Below are positions 650 through 8,315 of a DNA stretch of 63,502 bases, piece after piece. The stretch is taken from the NCBI GenBank assembly GCA_038853715.1, contig JAWCJE010000003.1, positions 52,416-115,917 of the forward strand, given 5' to 3'. The translations under genes were made by a program, and so were the position numbers. How positions within the stretch are numbered: the stretch's first letter is position 1; the number at the start of each line of letters is the position of its first letter. The notes beneath the pieces were generated by a model, which saw only the letters and a program-made list of their open reading frames with translations, did no database searches and was not told the DNA's origin. This DNA is from Candidatus Nezhaarchaeales archaeon. GTDB lineage: Archaea > Thermoproteota > Methanomethylicia > Nezhaarchaeales > JAWCJE01.

Positions 650-961
650 TTAAACACGAACCTCCACTCCGATAGCCCTCCTTATGAGTTCGCGAATAGG
701 ATCCACCTTTCTCTTTGATCCCATTTTGGTAGGTATCTCAACAATGGCTGGACGGGGTCTAGTGTATATGGATTGGAAGGCTTGTGGTGCTAGGTCTATG
801 GCTTCCTCGGTGGCGACAATTATGGCCACTTCTTCATCCTTTAAAGCTTTCGTAACTACTTCTTCCACTTCACGGCTTGTTTTAACTACGTATCCCTCAT
901 TTACCCCTGCGAGTTTAAAGCCGGCCACGGTATCTTCATCGCCTAGCACAATTATTTTCAA
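650..961 (-). CDS. atpF: A-type ATP synthase subunit F
   Basis: 103-aa F subunit of the central stalk of the A1 sector. The N-terminus [20 protein letters not shown] is the family signature (Rossmann-like fold), and length is typical (~100 aa). The start is a TTG at 959-961 directly abutting the TAA of subunit E (962-964), so translation is probably coupled. It lies between E and A, the usual archaeal order. Confidence 0.95.
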
Positions 962-1591
962 TTAGCTTTCACCCCATAGTTTTTTAGCCACCGTAAGCCT
1001 TAAGTCGCGCTCCTTACGGTGGAGGCGAGCCTCAAATGTGTTATCGTATACTATCCGTCCATCGCTGGTGGACACGATAGCGCCTCCTATAGTTTTTACT
1101 TTCACATCGGATAAGGTTAAAGCAGTGATAACGTTTAGCTTTCGGGTTATCCGCTTAGCTAATTTAGCCAGATCTATATTTAGATCGGCGTCTTTATCAT
1201 TAAGTTGGACTATGAGGCTGCCGCCACCTATGGCTATTGATGCCTCTTCTATCAACTCCTCGAGGACTTTAGGGTAACGCGGTGTTTTAACGAAGGTAGC
1301 TATCCTTTCGCGCGCTTTTTTAAAGGCTTCATCTATTAGGGATTCACGGGTTTTAAGCCAGCTTTCTTTGGCTTTAAACCTAGCCTCTATAAGGGCTCGC
1401 TTATTGGTTTCTTCAAGCTCCTTCCTATACTTTTCGAGCTCCATTTGGATCTTCCTTAAGGCTTTTTGCCGTTGTTCCTCCTTGATTTTTTCAACCTCGT
1501 TCCTTGCTTGCGATAATATTTGATCGGCTTGTCTACGGGCTTCAGATATAATTTTGTCGATAATCTTAGAGGCTTGCGCTTCGAGGCTCAT
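962..1591 (-). CDS. atpE: A-type ATP synthase subunit E
   Basis: 209-aa peripheral-stalk subunit E. The first ~110 residues are a charged coiled coil (AQASKIIDKIISEARRQADQ...) and the C-terminal half is the globular head (IGGAIVSTSDGRIVYDNT, as in the family). It pairs with subunit H as the stator heterodimer. Its ATG (1589-1591) overlaps the last base of the TAA of subunit H (TAATG), indicating translational coupling. Confidence 0.94.
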   Translation of the reverse strand: MSLEAQASKIIDKIISEARRQADQILSQARNEVEKIKEEQRQKALRKIQMELEKYRKELEETNKRALIEARFKAKESWLKTRESLIDEAFKKARERIATFVKTPRYPKVLEELIEEASIAIGGGSLIVQLNDKDADLNIDLAKLAKRITRKLNVITALTLSDVKVKTIGGAIVSTSDGRIVYDNTFEARLHRKERDLRLTVAKKLWGES

Positions 1592-1926
1592 TAAGGCTTT
1601 TCGCCTCCTGGAATTATCTCAGATAATATGGCCTCTATTGCTTTCTCCATGTTTTGCTCCGCCTGTTTCTTTAATACCTGTTCTTTCTCCTCCTCTTGTA
1701 GTATTCGTTTAAGCTCGGTCTCTAAGGTCTTCTCGGCTTCTTGTTTAAGCTTAGCTTTTTCATCCTCAAGTTGCTTTGACGTATCAATTTCACTGGTAGA
1801 AGCTTCAAGCTTTAATCGTTCTGCCTCTTTTTTAGCCTCTTCAATTATTCGTTTAGCTTCCTCTTCTGCCTTCCTAAACCTTTCTAAGCTTTCAACAAGG
1901 CTTGACATAAAGTGCCGCCGCGCCAC
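1591..1926 (-). CDS. atpH: A-type ATP synthase subunit H (peripheral stalk)
   Basis: 111-aa nearly all-helical, Glu/Lys/Ala-rich coiled coil, matching subunit H (also called G), the E-subunit partner in the peripheral stalk. It is the first gene of the minus-strand operon. Two starts are possible: ATG at 1926, or an internal ATG at 1908 giving MSSLVESLERFRKAEEEAK, which resembles the family start better. Identification rests on coiled-coil character, size and position before E rather than on a specific motif. Confidence 0.82.
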   Translation of the reverse strand: MARRHFMSSLVESLERFRKAEEEAKRIIEEAKKEAERLKLEASTSEIDTSKQLEDEKAKLKQEAEKTLETELKRILQEEEKEQVLKKQAEQNMEKAIEAILSEIIPGGEKP

Positions 1927-2174: not shown

Positions 2175-4466
2175 TTATAATATGTAGCGAGCCCTCATCT
2201 TAAACTCGTGTTTAGCGGCTGGCGACCAGTAGTCTAATGGTTTGTAGGTTGTTATCTCTCTTGCATAGTAGGTTAATGATGAGGGTAGGCTACCACATTG
2301 GAGGCAACGCTTCTTAACTCCGCCATAGGTTTTCCTGCATGAAGGGCAATATGTTAAGTCACGGCTATAGGAGAAGGCGCCCACATTAGATTCGCAGAGC
2401 TTTTTAGTGTAGCGTATTAAGGTCGCTGGCGGGGGAGGGGGTTCGTTAAGCCACACATGAAGGGCGTGCCCACCCGTGCTAAACTTATGGAGTGCTTCCT
2501 CGATGCGAATACGCTTTTTAAGCGGGATTTGGGCTGCTGCTGGTACTGGTGCTGAAAGGGTATAATAGGGGTTAGAGGGTGTACCCTGATAAACACGTAT
2601 CTTATCTGGATACCTTTTAGAGTCCGCTATGGCAAAACGTGTTGAGGGGTCTTCCGTCACTGTTTGAGCTAAGCTAAATCGTACTCCAGCATCTTTAGCC
2701 CGTTCGTCTATGGTTGATGCCGCCAGCTTAACAAGTTTTACAGCCAGTGCTAAGGAGGAGGAGTCCTCATGAAGAAAATAGCCTGTATGCGCTTTAATCG
2801 CTTCGGGCAATCCGACCAGCGTTATGTTGTAGGAGCCTGATTCAAAATTGAAATATGGCTTGCCAGCTACGTTAAAGCATAGTAGGGGGAAGGCTCCTTC
2901 CTTTGCTTTATTTAATAGTCGTCGTTGCTTAACAATTAAAGCATCTATGGCCGCGTTAAGGCTATGTATTAAGAGCGTGAAGAGCGTGTCATCGCTTCCT
3001 TTAGCCTCATAAGCAATTCTCGGTACATTTATCGCTACCTCTCCTATATTTCCAGTTCTAAGTGAGTCAAGTTCCCAATCATCATGCCACTTAGAGTCGA
3101 GCCTTATGAAGTGAGCATCGTAATTAACGTTACCGATCTGCCAAGGAAGTGTAAGGTTGGCGAAGGCGATGATGCCCCATGTTGCGGCTATTTGATGAAT
3201 TTTCTCAACAACTGGGTACACCTGCTTCAATTTAAGCGGGTCATCCCTTACTTTAACTACTATTGACGGCGATAGGAAGGGCCTTCCAAGTATGTCCCCC
3301 TCCATTACTACGTCAAGTAGGGCTTCAGTTATTAGCTCCGCTTCATCAGCGAAGGCGGCATAAGCGTCACCTCTCCCATTTAGTGTTATAGGTATGTTAC
3401 TTAGGTTATTAGGAATCCCTAGCTCCAAGTTTATAGTTACTGAGGGGATGAAGCCTTTAAACTCGAAATTTAGGTTTAATGTGCAGATAAACTCTCGAAG
3501 AAGGTTTTTAACTTCTTCATACTTAAGGCCCTTTGCGTATGGCGCTAAAAACACGTTAAAGTAGTCTATGCACTGATCGCTAGTTAGGTATGCCTCAGCA
3601 GCTGTAATAAGGTTGAGTAATAACCTTAAGGCTTCAGCTAAGCTTTGAGGCTTCCTCGCTGAGAATTGTAGAGGGAGGCTTTCTGGAGCGCTTACTAGAA
3701 AAACTCTTATGTCATGGCGGATGGTATTTAGCTTTAAGAGCCAGTCATGAACGTGTGAGAGGTTTATGGCTCCACTGATATGTGCATCACCAATAGTCCG
3801 TTCACTAAGTAAGGTATACTCCTCTAAGAGGGCTTCAGCTGCTCGCTTCTGTATGTGGAGCGGGGATGAAACCGGGGCTTTAAGAGGGCCTTCTATAAGG
3901 TTTGCAGCGTCAGCGTAAGGCATACCAAGCCTAGTAAATTTATGTCTAAAGTCCTCGAACCGTTTCTCGAGAAGGGTTGATACTACTATTTCCCTTATGA
4001 GGGGACCCGTTAAGTAATCAATCTTCATATTCATTATTTTACGCTCTACTTCGCTAGCCACTTCATTAGCTATCCTACTTGGCATTCCGGTTTCTCGTTT
4101 GAGGTCGTTTATGATTTTATCCTTATTGAAGGGCTCTAATTGGAGTTCTGAGGTTCTTACGAGGGGGGGTCGAGTATGCTTATGTTTTGAGAGGTCCTCT
4201 ATGGGCTCTATAATGCTGGCTAATATCTTACCAGCTTCGGTTAATACATATCTGCCGGTTTCTTGATCTTGGACTGTTAACCCGCTCTTGATTAGGCGCT
4301 TAAGGTGATAGCTAAGGCGGCCACTACTATTTAAATTCAAGCCATTCATCATTGAGGTGAAACTGGCTGAACCCTTACTGCTGAGCATTTTAACTATTTG
4401 AACCCTTACCGGATGTGATAGGGTTGAAAGAATGAGGTTAAATGTTGTAGCATCAACCTTAGGCAA
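2175..4466 (-). CDS. Winged-helix/ATP-cone/NrdD-like fusion lacking catalytic residues (putative nucleotide-responsive regulator)
   Basis: 763 aa. Residues ~1-80 form an ArsR-type winged helix (LSHPVRVQIVKMLSS, then SGRLSYHLKRLIKSGL). Residues ~100-190 resemble an ATP-cone (nucleotide-binding allosteric domain of ribonucleotide reductases). The rest follows class III ribonucleotide reductase NrdD: IGEVAINVPRIAYEA, GKPYFNFESGSYNITLVGL, and a C-terminal zinc site CPSC...CLQC. Key catalytic residues appear lost. Where NrdD has its CCR active-site pair this protein reads NYDAHFIRLD. The conserved Cys after the HxHD segment is replaced (HVHDWLLKLNTIRHD). The C-terminal glycyl-radical loop reads REITTYKPLDYW with no glycine. 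A reductase function is therefore unlikely; a dNTP/ATP-sensing transcription factor is inferred. A true NrdD would have to be encoded elsewhere. Confidence 0.8.
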   Translation of the reverse strand: MPKVDATTFNLILSTLSHPVRVQIVKMLSSKGSASFTSMMNGLNLNSSGRLSYHLKRLIKSGLTVQDQETGRYVLTEAGKILASIIEPIEDLSKHKHTRPPLVRTSELQLEPFNKDKIINDLKRETGMPSRIANEVASEVERKIMNMKIDYLTGPLIREIVVSTLLEKRFEDFRHKFTRLGMPYADAANLIEGPLKAPVSSPLHIQKRAAEALLEEYTLLSERTIGDAHISGAINLSHVHDWLLKLNTIRHDIRVFLVSAPESLPLQFSARKPQSLAEALRLLLNLITAAEAYLTSDQCIDYFNVFLAPYAKGLKYEEVKNLLREFICTLNLNFEFKGFIPSVTINLELGIPNNLSNIPITLNGRGDAYAAFADEAELITEALLDVVMEGDILGRPFLSPSIVVKVRDDPLKLKQVYPVVEKIHQIAATWGIIAFANLTLPWQIGNVNYDAHFIRLDSKWHDDWELDSLRTGNIGEVAINVPRIAYEAKGSDDTLFTLLIHSLNAAIDALIVKQRRLLNKAKEGAFPLLCFNVAGKPYFNFESGSYNITLVGLPEAIKAHTGYFLHEDSSSLALAVKLVKLAASTIDERAKDAGVRFSLAQTVTEDPSTRFAIADSKRYPDKIRVYQGTPSNPYYTLSAPVPAAAQIPLKKRIRIEEALHKFSTGGHALHVWLNEPPPPPATLIRYTKKLCESNVGAFSYSRDLTYCPSCRKTYGGVKKRCLQCGSLPSSLTYYAREITTYKPLDYWSPAAKHEFKMRARYIL

Positions 4467-4491: not shown

Positions 4492-4917
4492 TTAGTAGTT
4501 CCGTTTAACTTTTTTGGAGTGTATTTTATGGTTCTTAACCATGGTGCGCCACTCAGCTATTAAAGCCTCACCTTCTTCGTCGCTTACATTAAAAACCTCG
4601 TATTTAAGTAAAGCCTCAGCCAGGGCCTGTGCTAGGAGGTGGTAGCAGTACTTGCTTCGCGCTCGGGTTACCACGTTAACGTAAAAGTCATCGCATGTGC
4701 AAAAAAAGCCGGGTAAAACCCAGTAATCCCGCTCCTTACCAACCACAACCCAGAAGAAACGCCCACTTGGAGTCAGAAGGTATTTCTTAACATGACCTAG
4801 ATCAACGGCTTCCAATGCTTTAAGGAAGCGATCTCCATAAATGGCGTAGAGTTTCTCCCACGCTTCCTTAATGGTGAAGGCTTCCTTAAGCTCGTTTATA
4901 AGTGAATACAAGGTCAT
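4492..4917 (-). CDS. SWIM zinc-finger protein
   Basis: 141 aa with a SWIM-type zinc motif near residues 73-95: CTC, a 14-residue spacer, then CYH (CxCx(n)CxH). SWIM proteins bind DNA or partner proteins, and small archaeal members have been linked to recombination, but the specific role here is unknown. It lies 25 nt upstream of the NrdD-like regulator on the same strand, so the two may be co-transcribed. A TATA-like ACTATTTAAGC lies near 4969-4977 upstream. Confidence 0.75.
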   Translation of the reverse strand: MTLYSLINELKEAFTIKEAWEKLYAIYGDRFLKALEAVDLGHVKKYLLTPSGRFFWVVVGKERDYWVLPGFFCTCDDFYVNVVTRARSKYCYHLLAQALAEALLKYEVFNVSDEEGEALIAEWRTMVKNHKIHSKKVKRNY

Positions 4918-5390: not shown

Positions 5391-6191
5391 TTGATCCACT
5401 TCGTACCGGAAGAGCCCGCGCTTTTAGTGACGGATAAAGCTGGCAAGGTTCTAGTGATCGCGGATTTGCATTTAGGCTTTGAAAGAGAGCTGGCAACAAT
5501 AGGTGTTAATGCTCCTTCGCAAACAGGCAAGCTATTAGAGCGGCTTACATCTATGCTTAATCGGGTGAAGCCTAAGCGTTTACTGATTTTAGGTGATGTT
5601 AAACATGCGGTTCCAAAGATAACGGAGCAGGAATGGTTCGACATACCCGATTTTTTTGAAAACCTGTCGAAGTTAAACATACTGGTCGAGGTGGTGCCAG
5701 GCAATCATGATGGCGATTTGGAAGCCTTACTTTCAAGAGACGTAGTTATTCACGACGTAAGAGGGGTGCTCCTTGGATCGAAGGAGGGGATGGTAGGGTT
5801 ATTTCACGGTCATGCTTGGCCCTCACAAGACCTTCTTCAAGCTAAAGTCCTTGTAATGGCGCATAGCCATCCAACCATTGAGCTGCGTGACCCCTTAGGG
5901 TTTAAGCTTATTGAGCCAGTATGGGTTACGGCAAAGGTGAGAAGGAACAAGTTAAAAGAAGAGTACTCTAAGCGGATGAGGCAACGTTTTAAAAAATTGG
6001 AGACGCAAACCGTAATTATTATGCCAGCTTTTAACCGCTTACTCTTTGGTAAGCCAATAAATTCGATGGAGAAGCCTACCCTCTTAGGCCCTCTTTTTGA
6101 GGTTGAAGCTGTTGACTTGAACGATGCAGACATCTACCTTCAGGACGGAACCTACCTAGGTAAACTTCACAATCTAGTTGCGTCCTTTTAG
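5391..6191 (+). CDS. ICC-like metallophosphoesterase (COG1407 family)
   Basis: 266-aa calcineurin-like phosphoesterase. Metal-site motifs are in order: IADLHLGFE (DxH), ILGDVKH (GDxxH), VPGNHDG (GNHD), FHGHAWP and MAHSHP (GH..H). The N-terminal placement and DLHLGFE fit the archaeal COG1407 family of predicted phosphoesterases. The natural substrate is unknown. Translation starts at TTG 5391 (MIHFVPEEPALLVTD). It sits just upstream of the ribosomal cluster but has its own promoter region. Confidence 0.85.
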   Translation: MIHFVPEEPALLVTDKAGKVLVIADLHLGFERELATIGVNAPSQTGKLLERLTSMLNRVKPKRLLILGDVKHAVPKITEQEWFDIPDFFENLSKLNILVEVVPGNHDGDLEALLSRDVVIHDVRGVLLGSKEGMVGLFHGHAWPSQDLLQAKVLVMAHSHPTIELRDPLGFKLIEPVWVTAKVRRNKLKEEYSKRMRQRFKKLETQTVIIMPAFNRLLFGKPINSMEKPTLLGPLFEVEAVDLNDADIYLQDGTYLGKLHNLVASF

Positions 6192-6237
6192 GTTTGCTAA
6201 AACTCGAGAGTAGGTGTTTAGTAACGAAAGGTTTAAG

Positions 6238-6249
6238 AGTTTATAAAGT
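6238..6249 (+). promoter_or_regulatory. Probable promoter of the uS14 ribosomal cluster
   Basis: GTTTATAAAGT is a good archaeal TATA box. Transcription would begin around 6270, some 30 nt before the uS14 TTG start at 6300. Inferred by sequence and position. Confidence 0.5.
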
Positions 6250-6299
6250 CCTATCATGAAAAGCTGCAACTGAGAATGAAGGCCTGGAGGGTGAAGAAT

Positions 6300-6492
6300 T
6301 TGGGTAAGGTAAGGCCGCCGAAAAGTAGGAAATTTGGGAAGGGATCACGTAAGTGTAGGATATGTGGGACGCATGAGGCGATAATCAGGAAGTATGGGCT
6401 ATATGCTTAGGTTTGAGCTAAGCAGGCCATTCATATGTCGCCGTTGCTTTAGGGAGGTTGCTGTTAAGTTAGGTTTCAAGAAATATTCTTAA
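6300..6492 (+). CDS. rps14: Ribosomal protein uS14, interrupted by a 28-nt BHB mini-intron
   Basis: join(6300..6402, 6431..6492), 54 aa after splicing. uS14 is a small zinc-binding protein of the 30S head. Exon 1 starts at TTG 6300 (MGKVRPPKSRKFGKG), preceded by GGAGGGTG; an in-frame ATG at 6276 is possible but gives a non-family extension. Exon 1 carries CRIC (residues 19-22); exon 2 is in another frame and carries CRRC (37-40) and ends KLGFKKYS. Read straight through, exon 1 hits TAG at 6408. Removing 6403-6430 joins CTA T and TC ATA TGT (LFICRRC) and restores the 14-residue spacing between zinc knuckles seen in archaeal and eukaryotic uS14. A +1 frameshift would instead insert about 10 residues between the knuckles. 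Confidence 0.85.
6403..6430 (+). other. 28-nt bulge-helix-bulge intron in rps14
   Basis: Hand fold in the symmetric archaeal splicing motif. The outer helix is GUAUG (6392-6396) with CAUAU (6432-6436). The 4-bp central helix is GGCU (6397-6400) with GGCC (6425-6428). The 3-nt bulges are AUA (6401-6403) and AUU (6429-6431). The inner hairpin is UGCUUAG (6404-6410) with CUAAGCA (6418-6424), perfect 7 bp. Cutting after the second base of each bulge releases exactly 6403-6430 and restores the uS14 frame. The intron carries the in-frame stop TAG at 6408-6410. Confidence 0.82.
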
Positions 6493-6507
6493 CGAGGAGG
6501 GTTAGAG

Positions 6508-6900
6508 ATGTGTATGCAAGATACATTATCTAATGCTCTATCGACGATAATGAATAACGAAGCAGTAGGTAAATCCGAGTGTTTAGTAACTCCTGCTTCA
6601 AAGCTTATAGCTGGCGTGCTCAAAGTTATGTTAAAAGAGGGTTATATAGGGAATTTTGAGCTAATCGATGATGGAAGGCAAGGAAAAATAAGGGTTCAAC
6701 TACTTGGCAGGATTAATAAGTGTGGCGCAGTAAAGCCTAGGTTCCCGGTTAAACTAGAGGAATATGATAAGTACGAGAAGCGTTACTTACCCTCCTACGA
6801 TATGGGTTTACTCATTGTATCAACACCTAAAGGAATATTATCTCATAAGGAGGCTAAAGCCCTGAGGAGTGGAGGGGTTCTCCTAGCCTACGTTTACTAG
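6508..6900 (+). CDS. rps8: Ribosomal protein uS8
   Basis: 130-aa 30S primary rRNA-binding protein. The family pattern is clear: [18 protein letters not shown] at the N-terminus and the C-terminal [13 protein letters not shown] segment followed by GGVLLAYVY. It lies 15 nt after uS14 with GAGGAGGG ahead of the ATG. Length is normal for archaea and the order uS14-uS8-uL6 is the conserved spc order. Confidence 0.97.
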
Positions 6901-6912
6901 GAGGAAAACGAT

Positions 6913-7455
6913 GTGAAGGTCCTTTTACATCCAGCCTTTAAGGGGGAGGTTGAAGTAGTTAAAGGTGTCAACGTAGAAGTTGAAGGGGCTAAAGTTAAGG
7001 TCAAAGGACCCCTAGGTGTTCTTGAGCGAAGTTTTGAAAAACATATGGTTAAAATTTACACTCAAAACGGAAAGGTGTTTGTTGAAAGTTATATGAAAAA
7101 TAAGAAGGGGAAAGCTACGGTTAACGCTGTGCTAACGCACATCAAGAACATGATGGATGGTGTCCTCAGAGGTTTTACGTACAAGCTCAAAATAATTTAT
7201 TCGCATTTCCCGATAAACGTTAAGGTGGAAGGCGATCACGTAGTAATAGAAAACTTTAGGGGTGAAAAGCGGAAGCGGCTAGCTAAGGTACTTAAAGGGG
7301 TTAGGGTTGAAGTAAAGGGTGATGAGGTTATTATTACCGGTATAGATAAGGAGAAGGTGGGTCAAACCGCCGCTAACATTGAAATGGCCACTAAATCTAG
7401 GGGATATGATCCCAGGGTCTTCCAGGACGGTATATATGTATACCATAAGGGGTGA
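6913..7455 (+). CDS. rpl6: Ribosomal protein uL6
   Basis: 180-aa 50S protein with the two repeated alpha/beta domains of uL6. The C-terminal domain has QTAANIEMATKSRGYDPRVF, the archaeal signature. The start is GTG 6913 (VKVLLHPAFKGE), nested in ATGTG where the ATG is out of frame. Its TGA overlaps the eL32 start, so the two are translationally coupled. Confidence 0.96.
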   Translation: MKVLLHPAFKGEVEVVKGVNVEVEGAKVKVKGPLGVLERSFEKHMVKIYTQNGKVFVESYMKNKKGKATVNAVLTHIKNMMDGVLRGFTYKLKIIYSHFPINVKVEGDHVVIENFRGEKRKRLAKVLKGVRVEVKGDEVIITGIDKEKVGQTAANIEMATKSRGYDPRVFQDGIYVYHKG

Positions 7456-7853
7456 TGATGATGCTACGTAGACTTCGTTTAAATGAAAAGAAGCGACTAT
7501 TGAAAATCAGAAGGACATTAAACGCTTTAAAACCTAGGTTTACTAGGATGAACACTTTAAACCTTAAAAGGGTACCTGATTCCTGGCGTAACCCGAGGGG
7601 GCTTGATAATAAGATAAGGATAGGTCGTAAAGGGTATCCTCAACGGGTTAAAATAGGTTATCGTGGACCAAGAGCTGTGAGAGGGCTTCATCCAAGGGGG
7701 CTTATCGATGTCTTAGTGGATAGTGTTAAAGATCTTGATGGGTTGACGCTAAGCCAGCATTGTGTACGTATAGCTCATACCGTGGGAGCTCGAAAACGGG
7801 CTGAAATCGTTAAAAAGGCTACACGATTAGGGTTGACAATCATTAACCCCTGA
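7452..7853 (+). CDS. rpl32e: Ribosomal protein eL32
   Basis: 133-aa archaeal/eukaryotic-specific 50S protein. Recognisable blocks are SWRNPRGLDNKIR and KIGYRGPRAVRGLHPRG. The 5' end is a run GTG ATG ATG ATG (7452, 7455, 7458, 7461), so the exact start is ambiguous; any of the ATGs just after the uL6 stop would serve. Conserved position between uL6 and eL19. Confidence 0.95.
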   Translation: MMMMLRRLRLNEKKRLLKIRRTLNALKPRFTRMNTLNLKRVPDSWRNPRGLDNKIRIGRKGYPQRVKIGYRGPRAVRGLHPRGLIDVLVDSVKDLDGLTLSQHCVRIAHTVGARKRAEIVKKATRLGLTIINP

Positions 7854-7865
7854 AGGGTGTGAATC

Positions 7866-8315
7866 TTGACGCTTAAAACTATAAAACGGCTTGCCGCACA
7901 GATACTTAAAGTCGGCGAAAGAAGGGTTCGGATAGATCCGGAGCAGTACGATAAAGTTTCTTCGGCTATAACTAAGGAGGATGTAAGGCGCTTAATTAAT
8001 GATGGTGTCATAACCGTTAAACAGAAGAAGGGAATATCGAAAGGTCGTAAAAGGATGGTTCAGAGACAGAAAAGACGTGGATTAAGAAGGGGGGCTGGTA
8101 GCCGTAAGGGACATAGAGCCTTGAAAGCCAAAGACGCATGGATAAAAAGGGTTAGAGCCCTTAGAGAATTTCTCGTAGAACTAAGAAAGCGACGTATAAT
8201 AACTAAAAACACTTACCGAAAGCTTTACTTAATGGTTAAGAGTAATGTGTTTAAGAGTCGAGCCCAGCTTAAATCCTATATATCCGAGAAGAAGCTCGGC
8301 AGAACACCAGTTTAA
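7866..8315 (+). CDS. rpl19e: Ribosomal protein eL19
   Basis: 149-aa basic 50S protein of archaea and eukaryotes. It shows the family's RLAAQILKVGERRVRIDP N-terminus and the GRRMVQ/RRGAGSRKG basic helix region. The start is TTG 7866 with GTGTGAA upstream, as in other genes here. Part of the ribosomal cluster, 12 nt after eL32. Confidence 0.96.
   Translation: MTLKTIKRLAAQILKVGERRVRIDPEQYDKVSSAITKEDVRRLINDGVITVKQKKGISKGRKRMVQRQKRRGLRRGAGSRKGHRALKAKDAWIKRVRALREFLVELRKRRIITKNTYRKLYLMVKSNVFKSRAQLKSYISEKKLGRTPV

Follow-up and report, generated by a model that had tools for sequence, protein, structure and literature searches.

A catalytically dead class III ribonucleotide reductase fused to a winged helix and an ATP-cone is a probable regulator of ribonucleotide reductase genes in archaea

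In the window (the whole stretch of 63,502 nucleotides that was analyzed), the gene at 2175 to 4466 on the minus strand encodes a protein in which a winged helix and an ATP-cone precede an entire class III ribonucleotide reductase (RNR; NrdD) fold that still has its Zn(Cys)4 site. Alignment confirmed that this protein has lost every catalytic part: both active-site cysteines, the radical glycine, the flap, loop 2 and the HxHD motif. With a probability of roughly 0.7, we read it as a transcription factor that senses ATP/dATP and controls RNR genes and its own gene, similar to NrdR in its working but built from a dead reductase. Hundreds of uncultured archaea carry such a dead NrdD, which now probably turns the genes encoding the active enzyme on or off. 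We give slightly better than even odds to the view that this protein, here called HTH-NrdD, stands for an undescribed family of RNR-derived factors that predates the split between Methanomethylicia, Bathyarchaeia and several Asgard lineages, regulates itself and replaces NrdR for nrdD or nrdJ. The features concerned are as follows.

2175..4466, minus strand: HTH-ATP-cone-dead NrdD protein, 763 aa (ORF call with a TTG start; Pfam; AlphaFold; Foldseek)
4197..4451, minus strand: winged helix, ArsR-like, about residues 6-90 (Pfam and profile search)
3912..4169, minus strand: ATP-cone, about residues 100-185 (PF03477)
2367..3869, minus strand: NrdD barrel, about residues 200-700, catalytic elements lost (PF13597 and alignment)
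3723..3725, minus strand: Thr248 codon, aligned to the first-strand cysteine (PcNrdD Cys171; naming after PMC11226230) (alignments)
3111..3119, minus strand: Asp450-Ala451-His452 codons, aligned to QCC of the radical-cysteine loop (alignments)
2295..2348, minus strand: Zn(Cys)4 site, Cys707/710/721/724, retained (invariant in the A1 alignment)
2250..2252, minus strand: Thr739 codon, aligned to the radical glycine (alignments)
4492..4917, minus strand: SWIM-type zinc protein (CxC...CxHxxA), 141 aa, co-oriented (ORF and homologues upstream of HTH-NrdD)

The sequence-only reading had proposed an ArsR-like helix-turn-helix (HTH), an ATP-cone and a full NrdD-like body, and Pfam matched each of them above its curated cut-off. 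The winged helix matched HTH_20 (E 3.7e-7), HTH_5 (E 1e-5) and DUF7347 (E 7e-9), and its profile also matched HlyU 3jth and 5znx. The ATP-cone matched PF03477 (E 4.6e-7; 30.7 bits versus a cut-off of 25.8), while residues 205-761 matched NRDD (PF13597; E 7e-75). Against the NrdD equivalog TIGR02487, the protein scored 275 bits and was below the 326-bit cut-off; therefore, it is NrdD-like yet outside the curated enzyme set. TIGR00244 (NrdR) was absent among its NCBIfam matches. Structure prediction, suggested earlier as a check, yielded a confident NrdD fold: the AlphaFold model, based on 111 aligned proteins, had a mean pLDDT of 91.8 and a pTM of 0.82. Its top PDB match in Foldseek was the Prevotella copri NrdD 8p2s_B (E 1.4e-28; TM 0.65 by query and 0.76 by target), and S. 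thermophilus NrdD was also among the best matches.

The chemistry of P. copri NrdD involves Cys416, Cys171, Gly711, the NxN flap, the HxHD triphosphate motif and loop 2 (PMC11226230). As the reference for residue loss, canonical NrdDs from the same or related archaea were aligned. They carry the first-strand cysteine in PFCQDWD, read CYQCC in the radical-cysteine loop and have the radical glycine in SRVTGYY. At the corresponding positions of the window protein we found Thr248, a shortened loop reading NYDAHFI with His452 at the last Cys, and Thr739 within REITTYK. This agrees with the initial observations that the CCR position reads HFIR, that the other conserved Cys is missing and that the glycyl-radical glycine is absent; no catalytic Cys or Gly was present at a shifted position. 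In addition to these losses, the NxN flap (NANLQ) and loop 2 (RGGQ) are deleted and the HxHD motif is changed in the dead family. The first-strand cysteine was present in 42/42 canonical NrdDs but in 0/99 dead relatives, and the CC pair in 43/43 and 0/99, respectively. The C-terminal zinc site was also recognized correctly at the outset: its four cysteines (707, 710, 721 and 724) are retained in the window protein and in at least 97 of 100 sequences across the dead clade.

We detected the HTH-ATP-cone-NrdD architecture in 27 genomes out of 40 belonging to the same class as the window organism, with one copy truncated at a contig end. Among 398 genomes taken from the whole phylum, about one in four had it. 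A pattern scan of named genomes revealed 314 relatives, the best 80 of which come mainly from Methanomethylicota-, Bathyarchaeia-, Hecatellales-, Culexmicrobium-, Frey-, Jord-, Njord- and Helarchaeota-named lineages. Since the winged helix, the ATP-cone and NRDD were found together in all 25 members scanned with Pfam (HTH_5 in 20 and HTH_20 in 19 of them), this architecture is not due to chance. In a FastTree analysis of cone and body, one branch (support 100) set apart the dead proteins (about 99 relatives from Methanomethylicia, Bathyarchaeia and Asgard lineages) as a single clade that needs one state change; the finer placement in the tree is unsure because of long branches. Very divergent HTH-NrdD copies with long branches were seen at L021 (2900-5143; G001 C35) and L117; the L021 copy is a second paralogue in G001, with 26% identity to the window copy. 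L085 from Mnemosynella (5869-8232) was taken out of the dead set: it is an NrdD of the active type that lacks an HTH and seems to have two ATP-cones. Among the canonical sequences, it had the highest score (642 bits) with the dead-family profile.

Sequence pairs within the dead clade had a mean identity of 0.53 in the HTH, 0.67 in the ATP-cone (the most conserved domain), 0.35-0.42 in the barrel and 0.22 in the C-tail. Active NrdD shows the opposite order, with 0.53 for the cone, 0.52-0.70 for the barrel and 0.62 for the tail. Selection has shifted away from the catalytic barrel, towards the DNA-binding head and the nucleotide sensor.

We then considered the gene neighborhood. In Bathyarchaeia, HTH-NrdD is co-oriented with and directly upstream of an active nrdD or grx-nrdD in 11 of the 54 named loci with enough sequence around the gene. 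The same tandem was present in seven genomes of the phylum search, at least one of them on the same contig as a named locus. Most HTH-NrdD genes in the named loci are not adjacent to nrdD. In Bathyarchaeial loci (e.g., L088, L091 and L092), HTH-NrdD is often convergent with pyrB (aspartate carbamoyltransferase, by sequence).

In the window, a co-oriented SWIM protein had been pointed out from the start, and indeed its gene (4492-4917, minus strand) ends 25 bp before the HTH-NrdD start codon; the two genes are likely in the same operon. The SWIM protein carries the motif CTC...CYHLLA, a CxC...CxHxxA pattern resembling that of Sws1-type SWIM proteins. Homologues are located directly upstream of HTH-NrdD in G001 and G002 and nearby in the Bathyarchaeial G225. 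A metallophosphoesterase gene is close to SWIM and HTH-NrdD in the window (5391-6191, plus strand), G002 and G225. Directly downstream of HTH-NrdD, ORFs resembling archaeal A-type ATPase subunits were observed (window 650-1926, minus strand), and G001 (L052) has similar genes in the same place.

Promoter regions provided a second line of evidence. Of the 16 Methanomethylicaceae (family f9) genomes searched, 15 contain the sequence TATCNAWTTTTTTAARN7CTCNAAAA (at most one mismatch) exactly once, just upstream of nrdD. This candidate element carries TATCAATTTTTTTAAAT...ACTCTAAAA, is near-invariant while its flanks diverge, and lies just upstream of a BRE/TATA-like stretch. In three Methanomethylicaceae genomes (G034, G036 and G037), the nrdD element is present and HTH-NrdD was not found, a mismatch that may reflect gene loss, incomplete genomes or another binder. 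Copies of the nrdD element with three mismatches were noticed upstream of a purC-like gene at L189 and L206 (G021 C33 and G022 C44), a possible link to purine synthesis.

A related word, [AT]CT[CT]TAA[AT]TTTTTAAAC, had 10 matches in 1.04 Mb of related loci, eight of them upstream of HTH-NrdD, two upstream of nrdD and none elsewhere. It was also found upstream of HTH-NrdD in G225, which is outside the defining set. The candidate element in the Bathyarchaeial HTH-NrdD own promoter reads ACTYTAATTTTTTAAAC. In a held-out test, a matrix built solely from the Methanomethylicaceae nrdD sites was applied to other lineages, with AT-matched genes as a control. Upstream regions of HTH-NrdD scored higher than those of other genes (AUC 0.70; 1 of 300 column-permuted matrices was as good), and strong sites were present in 8/69 versus 4/472 regions, although part of this signal could be promoter, since the elements overlap or adjoin AT-rich core-promoter-like sequence. 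For RNR genes of lineages other than Methanomethylicaceae, the upstream scores of this matrix were not significantly raised (37 of 300 permuted matrices did as well). Counts of the word and of matrix hits in other intergenic regions speak against reading the element as an ordinary BRE/TATA, although it may overlap the core promoter.

Further sites were found by eye and are suggestive only: TACAAAATTTTATACA-like sites before TCTAAAAA in Bathyarchaeial nrdD promoters, and TACAAGTTTATACGA in the nrdJ promoters of G331 and G359. The 8-mer TACTCTAA, which is common to several promoters, was spotted after inspection and is exploratory only. In family f6 (L043-L046), the palindrome AAGAGTAATATACTCTT (0-1 mismatches) is located upstream of HTH-NrdD in four genomes, and the nrdD promoters of this family carry TTTTAGAGTAGTT.

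No operator-like element was recognized upstream of grx-nrdD, nrdJ or the SWIM-HTH pair, either in the window genome or in the two closest relatives that have the gene. The sequence-only reading had suggested control of real RNR genes and a motif search upstream of nrd genes. Control of RNR genes is supported indirectly by the nrdD adjacency in Bathyarchaeia, the nrdD-specific element in Methanomethylicaceae and the related element at the regulator genes, but not by a recognizable operator in the window organism's own nrdD promoter; the search gave gene-specific candidate elements in Methanomethylicaceae and Bathyarchaeia but none in the window organism. The main targets of such a nucleotide-sensing transcription factor could instead be genes other than those for RNR, for example in purine or pyrimidine biosynthesis or in replication. 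This would fit the many copies beside pyrB rather than nrdD, the three-mismatch element upstream of purC in G021 and G022, and the position of the window copy beside the SWIM protein and the ATPase genes. However, the only near-perfect promoter element in Methanomethylicaceae is that at nrdD, and the HTH-NrdD/nrdD tandem pairs recur, so we regard non-RNR genes as rather unlikely main targets.

NrdR is described as rare in archaea (PMC9110341). None was found in the window genome, and in the phylum sample NrdR was above the cut-off in 7 of 151 genomes, all in one family. Active RNRs, which were to be sought elsewhere in the genome, are encoded there: an intact NrdD (CYQCC, RVTGYY) with a glutaredoxin gene directly upstream, and also a class II NrdJ. 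The canonical NrdD at L024 (1136-4450; G002 C28; 1104 aa) has an insertion at CYQC (CLPGDELIVVR...), an intein by appearance, and NrdJ at L218 (1116-4937; G331 C27) has 1273 aa, compared with 919 aa for that of its close relative G359 (L219), so that an intein is possible there too.

In five genomes (G209, G225, G331, G359 and G391), the dead protein is the sole NRDD-family member and NrdJ is the RNR. An NrdD partner is thus not needed, which argues against a role as an accessory subunit. Such a role, in which HTH-NrdD would act as a regulatory subunit in mixed dimers with active NrdD and the winged helix would be a protein-interaction domain, is suggested by the homologous fold, the ATP-cone and the tandem with nrdD in some genomes. 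Given these five genomes with class II NrdJ only, and an N-terminal domain that is a well-conserved ArsR-like HTH, we consider it improbable.

The retained zinc site and fold could also point to an active, unusual reductase or another glycyl-radical enzyme with its residues at shifted positions. About a fifth of the dead members have a glycine near the radical position; the motif there is KxYGxYKPS and not RVTGYY (among 22 aligned members checked, one was the true NrdD L085, and the rest read like KxYGxYKPS). Moreover, a Thermotoga NrdD is described as lacking a pre-positioned radical cysteine (PMC4493059). Against this, none of the 99 members has either of the conserved catalytic Cys positions, the flap, HxHD, loop 2 and the glycyl-loop context are gone, and the same genome encodes an intact NrdD, which together make enzymatic activity very improbable. 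A decaying nrdD pseudogene fused by chance to a regulator, to which the faster-evolving barrel might hint, is hardly credible for an open, full-length gene with 314 relatives and one clade in several major archaeal groups, and is already contradicted by the strong conservation of cone and HTH.

For the favored reading of HTH-NrdD as an ATP/dATP-sensing regulator of RNR genes, we infer nucleotide binding, DNA binding, the identity of the bound elements and the direction of regulation as follows. The winged helix would bind operators in RNR promoters (nrdD, often with grx in front or nrdG behind) and in its own promoter; where NrdJ is the sole RNR, the nrdJ promoter would probably be the target. 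The ATP-cone would read the ATP/dATP balance, and the dead NrdD body would serve as a scaffold for dimerization and signal transmission rather than as an enzyme. ATP or dATP in the cone would change the oligomer that presents the DNA-binding heads. In NrdR, ATP and dATP in the cone alter the oligomer state (PMC9110341). The cone of NrdD already shifts the balance between dimers and tetramers with ATP and dATP (PMC11226230), and thus the switch could come with the inherited scaffold. By analogy to NrdR, the DNA-binding form would be favored when dATP is high, and the RNR genes would be repressed. Repression is more likely than activation because of this analogy and because the f9 element is located just upstream of a BRE/TATA-like stretch.

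The HTH-NrdD family is a candidate for adjusting RNR expression to the dNTP pool in archaea without NrdR, with a defined sensor, a DNA-binding head and predicted operators, and it is widespread in uncultured archaea. If annotation relies on PF13597 only, HTH-NrdD is counted as an anaerobic RNR, and the five genomes are credited with an NrdD that they lack. No description of such a protein was found in the open-licence literature searched, including two papers on RNR evolution. We know of no earlier RNR that lost catalysis and became a regulator; HTH-NrdD would be the first.

HTH-NrdD shares with NrdR (TIGR00244) an ATP-cone, a DNA-binding domain and zinc, and by analogy the expected reading of ATP/dATP and control of RNR genes and its own gene. 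However, NrdR has about 150 aa and binds DNA by an N-terminal Zn-ribbon (PMC9110341), whereas HTH-NrdD has a winged helix before the cone and a whole dead NrdD after it, so that the two are homologous in the cone only. NrdD (PF13597, TIGR02487) is similar in its ATP-cone, 10-stranded barrel, C-terminal Zn(Cys)4, domain order and the match to the P. copri structure; HTH-NrdD differs by the lack of both Cys, the radical Gly context, the NxN flap, HxHD and loop 2, and by the extra winged helix. The HTH_20/HTH_5 domain, whose profile matches HlyU, is common to ArsR/HlyU-type regulators, but ArsR proteins are small dimers, whereas the HTH of HTH-NrdD makes up only one part of a protein of 763 aa. 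BirA, PutA and NadR are enzymes doubling as transcription factors, and they too combine a metabolic enzyme scaffold with DNA binding; they keep catalysis, while the HTH-NrdD family has lost the catalytic residues. HTH-NrdD would function like NrdR without being a member of that family, and it descends from NrdD without being a reductase.
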